Positions 8,546-57,557 of a DNA stretch of 64,000 nucleotides are shown piece by piece. The stretch comes from Adlercreutzia faecimuris (lineage in GTDB: Bacteria > Actinomycetota > Coriobacteriia > Coriobacteriales > Eggerthellaceae): positions 62,001-126,000 of the forward strand of contig NZ_JAJMLW010000002.1 of assembly GCF_022669055.1 (NCBI RefSeq), in the 5' to 3' direction. Below the pieces are notes generated by a model. It did not search any database. It was given only the letters and a program-made list of their open reading frames with translations, and had not been told where the DNA came from. Both the position numbers and the translations under genes were made by a program. The first letter of the stretch is position 1. Every line of letters begins with the position of its first letter.

Positions 8546-9707
8546 CGCGTTCGAGAACATCCTCGGCCAGCCCAAGGTGCGCGAGTTCCTGCGCGCCTCC
8601 GTCGCCTCCGGGCGCGTGAGCCACGCCTACCTGTTCGCCGGCCCCGCCGGCTCGAACAAGACGCTCGCCGCCTACGCGCTCGCCCAGGCCGTCCTGTGCC
8701 CCAAGGGCCCGCGCGGCCCGCGCGGCGGCCGCTGCGGCGACTGCACGGCGTGCGACCGCGTCATGCGCCGCAAGCACCCCGACGTGCGCTACTTCGCGCC
8801 AGAGGGCGCCGCGGGCTACCTGGTCGAGCAGATCCGCGAGCTGGTGGCCGACACGGCGCTCGCCCCCATCCAGGGCGCGCGCAAGGTCTACATCATCGAC
8901 CGGGCCGACCTTTTGGGCACCGCGGCGGCCAACGCCTTCCTCAAGACCCTCGAGGAGCCGCCGGCCGACGTGGTCATCATCCTGCTCGGGCGCACCCGCG
9001 AGTCGGTGCTGCCCACCATCGTGTCCCGCTGCCAGGTGGTGCCCTTCCGGCACATCCCCGCCTCGGAGGCGGCCGGCATCGTGCGCCAGAACACCGGCGC
9101 GTCGCTCGAGACCTCCCGCGCCGCCATCGAGGCCTGCGGCGGGTCCATCACGCGCGCCTGCGAGTTCCTCCGCGCCCCCGGCAACGAGCGGCTGCGCTTC
9201 CGCTCGCGCGTGCTCGAGGTGCTCGCCTCGCTGCGCCGCGCCGACGACTGGGACGTGATCGGCTACGCCGCCGAGATGGTGACCGCCTCCAAGCTGCCGC
9301 TCGACGTGGTGCGCGAGGGGCAGGAGGCCGAGCTGGCCGAGAACGCCGACTTCCTGGCGAAGTCGGCCATCCGCCAGATCGAGGCGCGCAACAAGCGCCA
9401 GATCACGGCGAAGTCGGCCGAGTGCCTGCGCCAGCTCACGGCCATCACGGCCTCGTGGCTGCGCGACGTCCTGGCCACGAGCGCCGGGGCGCCGGAGCTC
9501 GTCATCAACGTCGACGCCCGCGCCGCGGTGGCCGACGCCGCCGCGCTCGCCGATGAGGCGTCGCTGGCCCGGGCGCTCGCGGCGGTCGACCGCTGCGAGG
9601 AGGCCCTTGCGTATAATGTGTCCCCGGAGACGTGCATCGACGTGCTCCTATTCGAGATAAGAGAGGCCCTCAATGGTTCGGGTAGCACCCATCAACATAG
9701 CCTTTAA
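8538..9707 (+). CDS. holB: DNA polymerase III delta' subunit (clamp loader)
   Basis: This 389-residue protein is part of the clamp loader that places the beta clamp on primed DNA. It begins at a GTG inside the tmk 3' end, preceded by GAGGGGG. It has [13 protein letters not shown], the P-loop variant GPAGSNKT near residue 36, four zinc-binding cysteines between residues 52 and 75 (CPKG...CGDCTAC), and the SRC motif ([10 protein letters not shown]). Its last 35 bases overlap the start of ricT, where a strong internal -10 also lies. The C-terminal collar is predicted helical. Confidence 0.9.
9612..9617 (+). promoter_or_regulatory. Internal promoter for ricT inside holB
   Basis: A perfect TATAAT inside the 3' part of holB, 56 bases before the ricT ATG. 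A TCGACC at 9587-9592 with a 19-bp spacer could be its -35. Confidence 0.45.
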
Positions 9708-52744: not shown

Positions 52745-53137
52745 TTAGCGCTCCTCGGGCGCTGCTGCGTTCAGAATGTCCTCGCAGGATCGCAGCTCCG
52801 CGAGGAAACGGGCGCGCTCCGCGGCGGCCGGGTCGGCCTCGGGAAGGGGAGCGGCGGTCACCTCGGCCGGGGCGGCGCCGGTCACCGGCGCGGCATCCGG
52901 AGCAGCCGGGGCGGGCGCGGTGGAGCTGCCCGCCCCGGCGGGCGCGGACGGGATGGTGCCGACGCCACCGGCGGCGGACGGGGCGGTCGCCGCGGGCGCG
53001 GCTGCGGGCTGCGTGGGCAGCGCGGGCACCGCGGCCTGCGCCTCCTCGGCGGCCTCGCGGGCCTCCTTCACGCCCCTGCCGCCGAGGGCCGCCTTCAGGC
53101 TGGCCAGCAGGTCGGACTCTTCAGGCTTCGTGCTCAT
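52745..53137 (-). CDS. Ala/Pro-rich partner of the AAA+ protease, function unknown
   Basis: This 130-residue protein starts STKPEESDLLASLKAALGGRGVKEAREAAEEAQ (predicted helix), has a long Ala/Pro linker at residues 37-100, and ends with a second helix AAAERARFLAELRSCEDILNAAAPEER. No family recognised. Its ATG overlaps the stop of the protease gene by four bases, and GAGGAGGAAG precedes it, so it is made with the protease. It could be an adaptor or substrate-delivery peptide. The two short helices joined by a flexible linker fit that idea, but it is inference. Confidence 0.75.
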   Translation of the reverse strand: MSTKPEESDLLASLKAALGGRGVKEAREAAEEAQAAVPALPTQPAAAPAATAPSAAGGVGTIPSAPAGAGSSTAPAPAAPDAAPVTGAAPAEVTAAPLPEADPAAAERARFLAELRSCEDILNAAAPEER

Positions 53138-56100
53138 CGGACTTCCTCCTCGCCGGCGCCGTCGGCCGGCGCCCCTTCCTCGTCCTCGCCAGCCCCGCCG
53201 CCCGCGCGGTGGCGCTCCCACAGCGCGACGATCTCCTCGCCGCGCAGCGTGCGGCCCGTGAGCAGCGCGTCGCGCAGCGCCTCGAAGGCCGCCGCGTTCC
53301 CGTCGATGACCTCCCGCGCCCGGGCGAGCGCCGCGGCCATGAGTTCGTTCATCCGCGCCAGCACCGCCTCGGGCAGCTCGGCGGTGGGGCAGCGCTCGCC
53401 GCGGGCGTCCGGCGCCACCAGCTGCACGAGGCCCGCGCCCGACATGCCGTAGGTGGCCACGTAGGCGCGCGCGAGCGCCGTGGCCTGGGTGAGATCGGAG
53501 CTGTTGCCGGCCGAGAACGCCCCGCACTCGCGCTCCTCGGCGGCCATGCCCGCCATGAGCATGGCCAGCTCGGCCTGAAGATCGGCGGCGGTGGGCAGGG
53601 GCCGGGCCCGGTTCTTCTCGTGCTGGACGTAGCCGAGGGTGCCGGTGCCCTCCTGCTCGATGGTGACCGCCTTCACGTCGGTGCGCCCCGTCTCGGCCAG
53701 GCCGACGAGCGCGTGGCCCGCCTCGTGGGCCGCCACGCGCCGGCGCGCGTCGTCGCCCGCCACGTCCACCGGGTCGAAGACCGTCGTGGCCGACAGCTTG
53801 CAGAAGTGCCCGACGTCCGGCACGTCGTCTGCCAGCACCTCGCGCACGTCCCCGCCCGCGCGGCCGGCGCGCCGGGCGATCACCTGCTGGAGCACCTCGT
53901 CGACGAAGCGGCCGTTGCCGAAGTTCTCGACGTTGTGGAAGTAGCGCAGCACGTCGGCCGCGGCCGCGAGCGCCCCCTCCTCCAGCGCAAGGCCGGCCGC
54001 CTCGGCCTTGCGGCGAAGCATCTCGGCCAGGTCGTCGGGCTCGTAGTCCTCGAAGCGCAGGCGGTAGCCGATGCGCGAGGCTATGCCCGGGTTCGCGTCG
54101 AGGAACGCGCGCATGGGCCCGTCGTAGCCGGCGAGCATCACCACGAGCTCGCCCTTGCGGTCCTCCATCGCCTTCACGAGGATGGCGAGCGCCTCCTGGC
54201 CCGATGAGGTCTCGGTGAGCGCGTAGGCCTCGTCGATGAACAGCACGCCGCCGAGCGCCCGCTCGATGAGCTTGGTCGTCTCGTCGGAGGTGCCGCCCAC
54301 GTACCAGCTGACCAGGTCCTTCGCCTGCACCTCGGTGAAGCGGTCGCCGGGCACGGCGCCCGTGGCGAACAGCACGCGCCCGATGATGCGCGCCATGGTG
54401 GTCTTGCCGGTGCCGGCCGGGCCGGTGAGCGCCATGTGCAGGTTCTGCGGCGGCAGCGCGAGGCCCTCGGCGGCCGCGCGGGCGCGGAACGCGGTGACGC
54501 GCTCGATCTCGCGCACGCGCTCCTTGACCTCGTCGAGCCCCACGATGGGCGCCATCAGCTCGTCGGCCGTGGCGCAGGCCCCGTCGAGCACGTCCATCAT
54601 CTCGCGGCGCGAGGGGATGTCGGCGGCCTCGATCACGCGGGTGGCCTCGCGGCCCTCGTCGCGCGCGGCCACGGCGTGCCGCACGAGCGCGCGCTGGAGC
54701 ACCTCGCAGGCGAAGCGCCCGTTGCCGAAGCTCTTGAACCCGGCGAAGTAGCCGAACAGCTCGTCGAGCCGCGCGTCCACGCCGGGGCCGGCCTCGAAGC
54801 CGCCGCGGGCGAGCTCGAGGGCGAACACCTCGGCCAGCTCGTCGCGGGTGAGGTCGGCGAAGTGGAAGGTGTAGCCGATGCGGGACGCCAGGCCCGGGTT
54901 CGCGTCGATGAAGTCGGCCATCTCGCGCTCGTAGCCGGCCACGATGACCACCAGATCGTCGCGGTAGTCCTCCATGAGCTTGACGAGCTCGGCCAAAGCC
55001 TCGTAGCCGAAGGAGGCGGAGTGGTGCGGATCGGGCGCCAGCGCGTAGGCCTCGTCGATGAACAGCACGCCGCCGCGCGCCCTCTGCACCACGTCGAACA
55101 CCTGCTTGTCGGTGTGGCCCACGTAGCGTGCGATGAGGTCCTTCGACGTGACCTCCACGCACTTGTTCTGGCTGATGATCCCTATCTTGTAGAGCATGGT
55201 GGCGATGATGCGCGCCACGGTGGTCTTGCCGGTGCCGGGGTTGCCCATGAAGGCCATGTGCAGGTTGGTCTTGGGCATGGAGAGGCCCTGGCCCTCGGCC
55301 TGCTTGGCGAACAGCGCGTAGGCCTCCAGCTGGCGGATGGTCTCCTTCACCGAGCGCAGGCCGACGATGCCGTCGAGCATCTCCTGGAGCGAGGACGATC
55401 GGTAGCGGCTCGGCGGCAGGGCCAGCACGCCGCGGGCGTTGGAGGTCTTGGCCAGGTAGTCAGCGAGCTCCTTGCCGCGGAAGGGGAGGATGTCGAGGTT
55501 GAAGTCGACGAAGGCGGTGAACTCGGCGCGGAAGGCGTCGTCGGCCTCGGCGCGCACGGCCTCGTCGAGCTCCTCGAGGTAGAGCTCGTAGATGTCGGCG
55601 GCGGAAAGCCCCGCCAGCTCGAGCCGGTGCTCTCCGAGCAGGAGCTCGAGGGTGGGGGACAGCCCCAGGAACCGGGCGAGCTCGCCCTTGGTGCCGGCGA
55701 GCACGAGGTAGCGGTGGTCCACCACGTGCCCGAAGCGCTCCACCAGGTAGCGGGCTGAGAAGTCGCGCTCGGGGTCGCGCTCGAAGAAGTCGTCGAGCCG
55801 GTCGACGACGTAGAGGCGCCGGGCCTTGAGGTTCTCGTCGCGGGTGGCGTGGAAGGTGGCCTCCACCGGGTTCACCGAGCGCAGGAGCGCGCCGATGTGG
55901 CGCCGCTCGAGGCCGTCCTCGTCGATCTTGCCCATCTTCGCCAGGATGTGGGCCAGGTCGGCCGTGAACTCGTCGAGGTAGGTGTCGTCGTCCACCACGA
56001 GGATGCCCGAGAAGTCGTCCTCGGAGCGGGCGAGCAGCAGGTTGAGCGCCGTGTCCGAGCGGATGAGGCGCGGCGCCCAGGTGCGGCGGAAGCGCGCGAT

Positions 56101-56523
56101 GGCCCGAGACACGTCGAGGGCCTCGGAGTAGAGGGGGATGACGGTGGCGCCCAGGTCGTCCAGGGCGCGGAAGCACGCGGCTAGGGCGAAGGGGCACAGC
56201 GCGCGGGGGCACGCGTCGCCGCGGGAGCACTTGAGGTCGCCGTGGCCCTGCTTCATGACGGCGCCGCGGGCCCGGGGAAGCGTGCCGTCCAGAAGCGCGC
56301 AGGCGCCCGCGTCCACGCAGCCGGCGGCCACGGCGGCCGCGGCGGCGGGGTCGGGAAGCGCGAAGCCGATGGCGCGCCCTCCCAGGGCCTCGTCCTCCAC
56401 GACGGCCACGAGCCCCTCGTCGAAGAGCGCCCCGGCCGCCTCCTGGGCGGCGGCGTCCTCGGCCTCGAGGCTGTCGAGGACCGACTCGACGTCGGTGCGG
56501 GTGTAGGTGAGCGCGCGCCGCAT
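53134..56523 (-). CDS. Triple AAA+ (CbbX/SpoVK-type) protein fused to an M41 (FtsH-type) zinc protease
   Basis: This 1129-residue protein combines modules I have not seen together. Residues 1-150: Ala-rich, with Cys99, Cys105, Cys110, Cys117. Residues 150-375: a degenerate AAA+ domain; YVVDRLDDFF (238-247) and YLVLAGTKGELARFLGLSP (272-290) align with the Walker B and following strand of the next domain, but Walker A is missing. Residues 380-640: AAA+ domain 2 with GNPGTGKTT (427-435) and LFIDEAYA (487-494). Residues 655-900: AAA+ domain 3 with GPAGTGKTT (701-709) and LFIDEAYA (761-768). Residues 920-1100: M41 protease with HEAGH (933-937) and the third ligand Asp1010 in GNSSDLTQATALAR. No membrane segment, unlike FtsH. 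Coupled to the WYL regulator (TGATG overlap). Confidence 0.92.
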   Translation of the reverse strand: MRRALTYTRTDVESVLDSLEAEDAAAQEAAGALFDEGLVAVVEDEALGGRAIGFALPDPAAAAAVAAGCVDAGACALLDGTLPRARGAVMKQGHGDLKCSRGDACPRALCPFALAACFRALDDLGATVIPLYSEALDVSRAIARFRRTWAPRLIRSDTALNLLLARSEDDFSGILVVDDDTYLDEFTADLAHILAKMGKIDEDGLERRHIGALLRSVNPVEATFHATRDENLKARRLYVVDRLDDFFERDPERDFSARYLVERFGHVVDHRYLVLAGTKGELARFLGLSPTLELLLGEHRLELAGLSAADIYELYLEELDEAVRAEADDAFRAEFTAFVDFNLDILPFRGKELADYLAKTSNARGVLALPPSRYRSSSLQEMLDGIVGLRSVKETIRQLEAYALFAKQAEGQGLSMPKTNLHMAFMGNPGTGKTTVARIIATMLYKIGIISQNKCVEVTSKDLIARYVGHTDKQVFDVVQRARGGVLFIDEAYALAPDPHHSASFGYEALAELVKLMEDYRDDLVVIVAGYEREMADFIDANPGLASRIGYTFHFADLTRDELAEVFALELARGGFEAGPGVDARLDELFGYFAGFKSFGNGRFACEVLQRALVRHAVAARDEGREATRVIEAADIPSRREMMDVLDGACATADELMAPIVGLDEVKERVREIERVTAFRARAAAEGLALPPQNLHMALTGPAGTGKTTMARIIGRVLFATGAVPGDRFTEVQAKDLVSWYVGGTSDETTKLIERALGGVLFIDEAYALTETSSGQEALAILVKAMEDRKGELVVMLAGYDGPMRAFLDANPGIASRIGYRLRFEDYEPDDLAEMLRRKAEAAGLALEEGALAAAADVLRYFHNVENFGNGRFVDEVLQQVIARRAGRAGGDVREVLADDVPDVGHFCKLSATTVFDPVDVAGDDARRRVAAHEAGHALVGLAETGRTDVKAVTIEQEGTGTLGYVQHEKNRARPLPTAADLQAELAMLMAGMAAEERECGAFSAGNSSDLTQATALARAYVATYGMSGAGLVQLVAPDARGERCPTAELPEAVLARMNELMAAALARAREVIDGNAAAFEALRDALLTGRTLRGEEIVALWERHRAGGGAGEDEEGAPADGAGEEEVR

Positions 56524-57557
56524 CAGGCCGTCCCGCCTTCCGCGACGGCGCCGTCGTCCCCGGCGCCCAGCCCCTCGCCGTGGGCGGCGAGGATGGCGCG
56601 CAGGTGGTCGGCGTAGGCGCGGGCCAGCGACGTCGGCTTCTCCACCACCACGGCGTCGCCGAATTGGGCGAGCCAGCCGAACAGCACGGGGCTGGCCATG
56701 GCGGTGGCGGCCACGTGGGCCCAGCCCTCGCCGGCCGGCGTGGCGGTCACGTCGCGGCCGAGGCGGTCGATCACGCCGCTCATGGCGTCCTCGCGCACGC
56801 GCAGCGTCAGGGGCACCGGGTCGCCCTGGTACATCCCGAAGGCGCGGCGCTCGTGCTCGGCCACGTCGAACGACGATATCAGCTCGCTTCTCGCCGCCTT
56901 CTCGTCGCAGATCATGAGCGAGGTCATGCGGTCGACGCGGTAGGTGACGAGGCTGTCGTGGCGGTCGTTGTAGGCGATGAGGTAGTAGAAGCCGTCGCTG
57001 TAGACCAGCTGCACCGGCGTCTCGACGTAGGGCTGGCCGCCGTGCTGCATGACGCGGCGCTTGTCGACGCCGTACTTGAAGTACTTGAACGACACCTTGC
57101 GCTTCTCGCGCAGGGCCTCGTGGATGCAGTCGACGTTGGAGAAGACGCTCTCGTTCTGCGTCTTGACGCGGCCCTCGACGTGGGTGCGCTTGGCGAGCGC
57201 CTTGGCCTGGTGGCGCGACCCGAGGGTCTTGATGGAGCGCACGAGCGCGTCGGACTTGCCCTGGGTGAGGAAGCGCGACCCCTGGACGGCGTCGGCGAGC
57301 AGCAGCATCTCGGACAGCGAGAACTCGCGGCTGGCCAGGGCGTACTCCACGGGGCGGCGCGGCAGGGTGGTGATGTCGAGGCCGAAGGAGCGCAGCGCCT
57401 CGATGTCGCGGTAGATGGCCTTGCGCTCGGCGGTGATGCCCTTGCCGGCCAGGTGCTCGAGGATCTGCGGCATGGTGAGCCCGTGGTCGGGGTCGGTCTC
57501 CTCGTGGAAGAGGCGCACGAGGTGGAGGAGCTTGAGCTTCTGGTTCTCCTGGGGCAT
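56523..57557 (-). CDS. WYL-domain transcriptional regulator
   Basis: This 344-residue protein has an N-terminal winged helix (LLHLVRLFHEETDPDHGLTMPQILEHLAGKGITAERKAIYRDIEALRSFGLD), a middle region, and a WYL-type domain where GFYYLIAYND...TYRVDRM stands for the WYL motif. WYL proteins often sense nucleic acids or metabolites and control defence or DNA-damage genes. It is the first gene of the minus-strand operon; its stop shares a base with the protease start. It could bind the 187-bp divergent promoter region shared with the HIRAN gene. Confidence 0.92.
   Translation of the reverse strand: MPQENQKLKLLHLVRLFHEETDPDHGLTMPQILEHLAGKGITAERKAIYRDIEALRSFGLDITTLPRRPVEYALASREFSLSEMLLLADAVQGSRFLTQGKSDALVRSIKTLGSRHQAKALAKRTHVEGRVKTQNESVFSNVDCIHEALREKRKVSFKYFKYGVDKRRVMQHGGQPYVETPVQLVYSDGFYYLIAYNDRHDSLVTYRVDRMTSLMICDEKAARSELISSFDVAEHERRAFGMYQGDPVPLTLRVREDAMSGVIDRLGRDVTATPAGEGWAHVAATAMASPVLFGWLAQFGDAVVVEKPTSLARAYADHLRAILAAHGEGLGAGDDGAVAEGGTA

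Follow-up and report, generated by a model that had tools for sequence, protein, structure and literature searches.

The window analysed here is a stretch of 64,000 nucleotides from Adlercreutzia faecimuris (contig NZ_JAJMLW010000002.1, positions 62,001 to 126,000), and its minus strand encodes a protein in which AAA+ modules of the CbbX/SpoVK type are joined to a C-terminal M41 peptidase domain of the kind known from FtsH. A sequence-only reading of the window had placed this gene at 53134-56523, and these coordinates are right: the frame runs from ATG to stop. The same reading proposed a new class of soluble, self-contained AAA+ protease. Table 1 lists the parts of the fusion, which we call the protease, and the genes that surround it.

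Table 1. The M41 fusion protease, its parts and its neighbours in the window (residue numbers refer to the protease)
Feature	Position	Strand	Description and basis
Protease coding sequence	53137..56523 (stop 53134-53136)	minus	1129 aa; Cys-rich N-terminus, pseudo-AAA, AAA1, AAA2, M41 peptidase
Cys-rich motif, residues 99-117	56173..56229	minus	C-x5-C-x4-CP-x-A-x-AA-C; alignment
Degenerate CbbX-like AAA+ module, residues 128-375	55399..56142	minus	Without Walker A; AlphaFold2 (AF2) model, Foldseek, fold comparison
AAA1, residues 381-621	54661..55383	minus	CbbX/SpoVK type; Walker A 427-434, Walker B 487-493, pore loop YVGHT; profiles, alignment, tree
AAA2, residues 654-890	53854..54564	minus	CbbX/SpoVK type; Walker A 701-708, Walker B 761-767, pore loop YVGGT; profiles, alignment, tree
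Peptidase_M41 domain, residues 924-1100	53224..53754	minus	Pfam, alignment, predicted fold
HEAGH zinc/catalytic motif, residues 933-937	53713..53727	minus	Sequence alignments
Asp1010	53494..53496	minus	Aligned with FtsH zinc-site Asp; family-invariant; alignments
WYL/WCX-domain transcriptional regulator	56526..57557	minus	Directly upstream; stop overlaps protease start (shared base 56523); conserved in genus only
Small Ala/Pro-rich open reading frame	52748..53137	minus	ATGA overlap with protease stop; also at same-genus locus L040; no Pfam match
YbjN/TY-Chap1 family protein, 145 aa	52273..52707	minus	Pfam PF10722, 1.1e-12; conserved protease neighbour in Coriobacteriales

The identity of the C-terminal domain was checked by several comparisons. 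An M41 profile score no better than background had been set beforehand as grounds for refutation; what we found in Pfam was a match of residues 924-1100 to PF01434 at 98 bits (8.4e-28), against a gathering score of 29.9. Taken by itself, the C-terminal piece reaches 87 bits in the M41 part at the end of the FtsH model, and among solved structures this piece matches FtsH. A structure model of the domain, built by AF2 from family members only (predicted local distance difference test score, pLDDT, 79.5; predicted template modelling score 0.75), matches FtsH protease domains with Z 14.7-22.1. The top 22 rows are all FtsH family, the best being 3kds_F (Z 22.1, root-mean-square deviation 3.5, 181 residues aligned); below them come a 125-residue Vibrio protein (Z 9.2) and then site-2 proteases (Z 4.5-4.9). 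By prediction, then, the C-terminus has an M41-type fold.

His933, Glu934, His937 and Asp1010 align with the HEAGH motif and the Asp of solved FtsH chains. In the alignment with Thermotoga-type FtsH chains HEAGHA is identical, and Asp1010 (in the context GNSSDL) falls on the Asp of the FtsH SGxxxD segment, which serves as the third zinc ligand in FtsH. Across the 16 intact fusion sequences that we aligned, the active-site residues His, Glu, Gly, His and Asp never vary, at domain identities down to 26%, and among the family members found there is none that has lost the HExGH motif. The zinc-site residues proposed from the sequence (His933, His937, Asp1010) are thus aligned and invariant within an FtsH-like predicted fold, where they would hold the metal.

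Ahead of the peptidase lie two intact ATPase modules. Pfam finds PF00004 in two stretches (4.3e-33) together with AAA_lid_6 (PF17866, 7.5e-12). Cut out as single modules, both match the SpoVK model best, AAA1 with 213 bits and AAA2 with 190; CbbX and EccA follow, and in this profile search neither module has an FtsH model match at 1e-8. Walker A reads GNPGTGKT in AAA1 and GPAGTGKT in AAA2, Walker B is LFIDEAYAL in both, and each module carries a SRIGY segment after NPG and a pore loop of the form YVG[HG]T. The GY signature of the sensor-1 region, taken from PMC10659427 as a mark of the CbbX/SpoVK/EccA clade, is present in the two modules as VIVAGYE and VMLAGYD. The closest solved structure to the AAA part is CbbX (3.5e-48), and in a tree of AAA modules nearly all fusion modules cluster within the CbbX-type part, the 12 FtsH rows being set apart by a branch with support 100. 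By these sequence measures the AAA modules of the fusion group with CbbX/SpoVK and not with FtsH, as the sequence-only reading had it. The protein is nevertheless not a member of any of the curated families, since it misses their cut-offs: 397 bits summed over the two modules against 423 for the SpoVK equivalog TIGR02881, 343 against 459 for the CbbX equivalog TIGR02880, and 105 against 600 for the FtsH family TIGR01241, where the best stretch is the C-terminal M41 part.

The pore loops of the two modules differ in their conservation. The AAA1 pore tyrosine is retained in most Coriobacteriales members. At loci L101, L102, L103 and L007 the AAA2 pore-loop aromatic is replaced or shifted (FQF, IVG, RSG) and AAA1 still reads YVG; that such changes touch AAA2 only suggests that the two rings have different tasks.

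For residues 1-385 Pfam returns no match, and the degenerate AAA module there is visible by fold alone. An AlphaFold model of this N-terminal module (mean pLDDT 85) finds CbbX as its best match (Foldseek 4.6e-6), and VIA fold comparison with the CbbX structure gives Z 12.1 (239 residues, 13% identity), so that a CbbX-like fold is predicted for the N-terminal third as well. The "triple AAA+" of the sequence-only reading holds in the sense that residues 128-375 form a third CbbX-like module by predicted fold, but this module is degenerate and has no P-loop. Because it lacks Walker A and its Walker B-like strand reads LYVVDRLDDF, we regard this first AAA module as a pseudo-ATPase. The Cys-rich motif precedes it, and its four Cys are all conserved in the alignment of 8 Coriobacteriales members; with its CPxAxAAC end the motif is a possible metal site. 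Related three-Cys motifs are visible in the Clostridial members, duplicated in the large proteins at L203 and L206.

We found 16 intact members of the family, along with two copies that are broken or split; they come from Coriobacteriales and Clostridia, hence from two phyla, and bear out the claim that this is a class and not a lone oddity. The homologues are full-length or nearly so: those of the same genus share 87-88% identity (one copy is split over contigs), a second genus of the same family has one of equal length at 49%, and others occur in two other families of the order Coriobacteriales and in five Clostridial genomes, where the form at L204 has 983 aa. The number of AAA modules per fusion varies from 2 to 4, some of them inactive. 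Among 396 sampled genomes of the phylum, none outside Coriobacteriales gave a fusion, and none was found at E 1e-62 in Bacilli (250 genomes) or Bacteroidia (198), a threshold strict enough to make this weak evidence, with other phyla outside the search. The unusual architecture by itself could speak for a chimaeric contig or a run-on reading frame uniting an AAA gene with an ftsH fragment. We consider such an artefact of assembly or gene calling practically negligible: the same junction recurs in independent genomes of two phyla, in all 16 intact members, it is kept at 49-51% identity between genera, and the genome has its own separate ftsH (790 aa). A phage or plasmid origin was likewise rejected, as no viral, phage or plasmid record carries the fusion and the matches there are to AAA modules only; a defence system was rejected because the PADLOC matches are merely to generic AAA and WYL proteins.

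Three further loci deserve mention. The Clostridial member at L203:4848-10265 has 1805 aa, with three intact CbbX-type modules, M41 and its duplicated Cys-rich N-terminal region. At L108 (G399) a copy of the protease gene is frameshifted between AAA2 and M41 (~9229-9416, reversed strand), by decay or sequencing error. L216:1717-5001 (-), also Clostridial, encodes another unusual M41 protein (1094 aa in one frame, open at the end of the piece), with an N-terminal region that by eye is Clp-like AAA, followed by a middle stretch, an FtsH-type AAA and M41.

In the M41-domain tree the 16 fusions and 17 FtsH proteins lie on opposite sides of one branch (support 95/85), a topology compatible with a single origin of the fusion's M41 domain. 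Taken together, the M41-domain and AAA-module trees indicate a fusion of M41 with motors from the clade that is sister to FtsH. The gene is under purifying selection, the ratio of non-synonymous to synonymous substitution rates (dN/dS) within the genus being about 0.25 for the whole gene and 0.37-0.41 in M41.

No segment of the protease is as hydrophobic as an FtsH membrane helix in a hydropathy scan, which speaks for the word "soluble" in the sequence-only reading: the highest 19-residue value, 1.83, falls in a stretch rich in Ala, whereas the genome's own FtsH reaches 2.68 and 2.47 in its two helices. The N-terminal transmembrane anchor of the FtsH family is therefore missing. Bacterial M41 proteases are regarded as membrane-anchored FtsH enzymes, and M41 enzymes degrade as hexamers (PMC9020784); YME1L still works when its membrane anchor is swapped for a soluble hexameriser (PMC5095350). 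For these reasons we see the missing helix as no obstacle to activity.

The protease gene forms a run with the genes for the WYL regulator, the small Ala/Pro-rich protein and the YbjN/TY-Chap1 protein, of which YbjN is the sole neighbour conserved beyond the genus. Of the 12 Coriobacteriales genomes with a readable flank, 11 have a YbjN gene next to the protease gene, on one strand or the other (L105 has two copies, at 1657 and 10521); the twelfth, G298, has a weaker match on another contig, and the G060 contig breaks off shortly after the protease gene. Matches to YbjN occur in 13/13 carriers against 4/50 sampled non-carriers of the class (Fisher p 2e-10), a figure biased twice, as the profile was built from the neighbours and the kinship of the carriers is uncorrected. 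An adaptor role of YbjN for the protease is plausible in view of the type III secretion chaperone fold of YbjN proteins (PMC5398634) and the prediction that TY-Chap1 acts as a chaperone for peptides, binding them (PMC9503650). The word "self-contained" may be too strong, given that a YbjN-type gene travels with the protease in Coriobacteriales. The WYL regulator was rejected as functional core because its conservation stops at the genus; at L107 a distant WYL protein is found next to the protease gene in convergent orientation. Nor is there a conserved upstream partner among the neighbourhoods, the neighbours at L104 and L105 being weakly alike (22-23%) and without a significant match in Pfam. 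In G114 the gene upstream of the protease gene (L039:5369-7099, reversed orientation) codes for a protein rich in SIAALMG-type repeats, to which Pfam assigns no significant domain.

The tight linkage to a gene of type III secretion chaperone likeness, and the typically narrow targets of this AAA clade (PMC10659427), would also suit a processing protease, one that cuts a dedicated partner at one or a few specific sites and so activates it instead of destroying it, the partner being for example a YbjN-bound protein or the small Ala/Pro-rich neighbour. However, the neighbourhoods hold no conserved substrate gene apart from YbjN, and Clostridial carriers lack even that, making us doubtful of such a role, although we grant it a minority share.

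Our preferred reading, which we hold to be probable, is that the protein is a soluble, cytosolic, hexameric ATP-dependent zinc metalloprotease. With CbbX/SpoVK motors joined to M41, in a conserved two-phylum family and usually beside YbjN, it looks like a cytosolic cousin of FtsH. Six chains would probably stack into a barrel of an inactive CbbX-like N-terminal ring, two ATP-driven CbbX/SpoVK-type rings and an M41 ring. The pseudo-AAA module and Cys-rich N-terminus would serve as a docking platform that chooses or delivers the substrate, a task in which the chaperone-like YbjN/TY-Chap neighbour may take part in Coriobacteriales; the pore-loop tyrosines would then pull this substrate through the rings and into the M41 chamber, AAA1 acting as the main motor and AAA2 as the coupling ring, and the zinc held by HEAGH/Asp1010 would cleave it there. 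The membrane-free protease with CbbX-style motors feeding M41 that the sequence-only reading described is thus supported in its domains, folds and motifs, and we infer from these its ATPase and protease activities and its hexamer. That it represents an undescribed soluble class, spanning Coriobacteriales and Clostridia and with a dedicated YbjN-type adaptor in Coriobacteriales, we regard as an even bet.

Four observations weigh against this reading. The five Clostridial carriers have no YbjN gene; several Coriobacteriales members have lost the AAA2 pore-loop aromatic (FQF, RSG), so that translocation by AAA2 may not be common to every member; within the genus M41 evolves faster than the AAA modules, with the highest dN/dS of four regions; and the characterised members of the clade are dedicated chaperones, not unfoldases feeding proteases (PMC10659427). 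The last two would also fit a dedicated AAA+ chaperone like CbbX, SpoVK or EccA, in which M41 is retained as a platform for oligomerisation or substrate binding with little or no proteolysis, and inactive M41 relatives exist in plants (FtsHi, PMC8197885). We nonetheless find this chaperone role improbable: all 16 members, from two phyla, have the same His, Glu, His and Asp, a constancy not expected of a pseudo-protease, and no member was found without the motif.

The family breaks two rules, namely that M41 means membrane-anchored FtsH (PMC9020784) and that the CbbX/SpoVK/EccA clade is free of peptidase partners (PMC10659427). If the metalloprotease reading is right, it would also provide structural biology with an M41 machine that is soluble by nature, and a way to ask what sets a remodelling chaperone motor apart from a degrading one, and would give YbjN proteins, with their type III secretion chaperone fold, a concrete candidate partner in gut bacteria. 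On the second rule, a 2023 preprint on SpoVK found no peptidase fusions or associations in the clade, which was proposed to work solely in assembly and activation (PMC10659427). The 16 intact members, each with M41 fused, contradict that claim.

Compared with the chaperones CbbX, SpoVK and EccA (TIGR02880, TIGR02881, TIGR03922), on whose models both AAA modules score best, the window protein differs in being fused to a peptidase; tandem-module relatives without M41 exist, for example at L008. The neighbour gene matches PF10722 like the YbjN/TY-Chap1 proteins AmyR and DR1245, whereas TY-Chap1 was described in ADP-ribose conflict systems (PMC9503650), and in the open-access literature searched the family was nowhere connected with an AAA+ protease. 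Nor did searches of that literature by architecture, by parts and for soluble FtsH turn up a CbbX-M41 protein. With FtsH and the m-AAA and i-AAA proteases (MEROPS M41) the fusion shares an M41 domain C-terminal to AAA+, the HExGH and Asp zinc site and a fold similarity of Z up to 22, but its AAA modules are of the CbbX/SpoVK clade, it has two intact and one degenerate module where they have one, and it lacks transmembrane helices. Engineered soluble hexYME1L likewise works off its membrane anchor, united by another oligomerisation element (PMC5095350), but it is man-made and has a canonical FtsH-type AAA, whereas the fusion is natural and its AAA clade a different one. ATP-driven M41 proteases and CbbX-type motors are each known; it is their natural fusion that appears to be undescribed.

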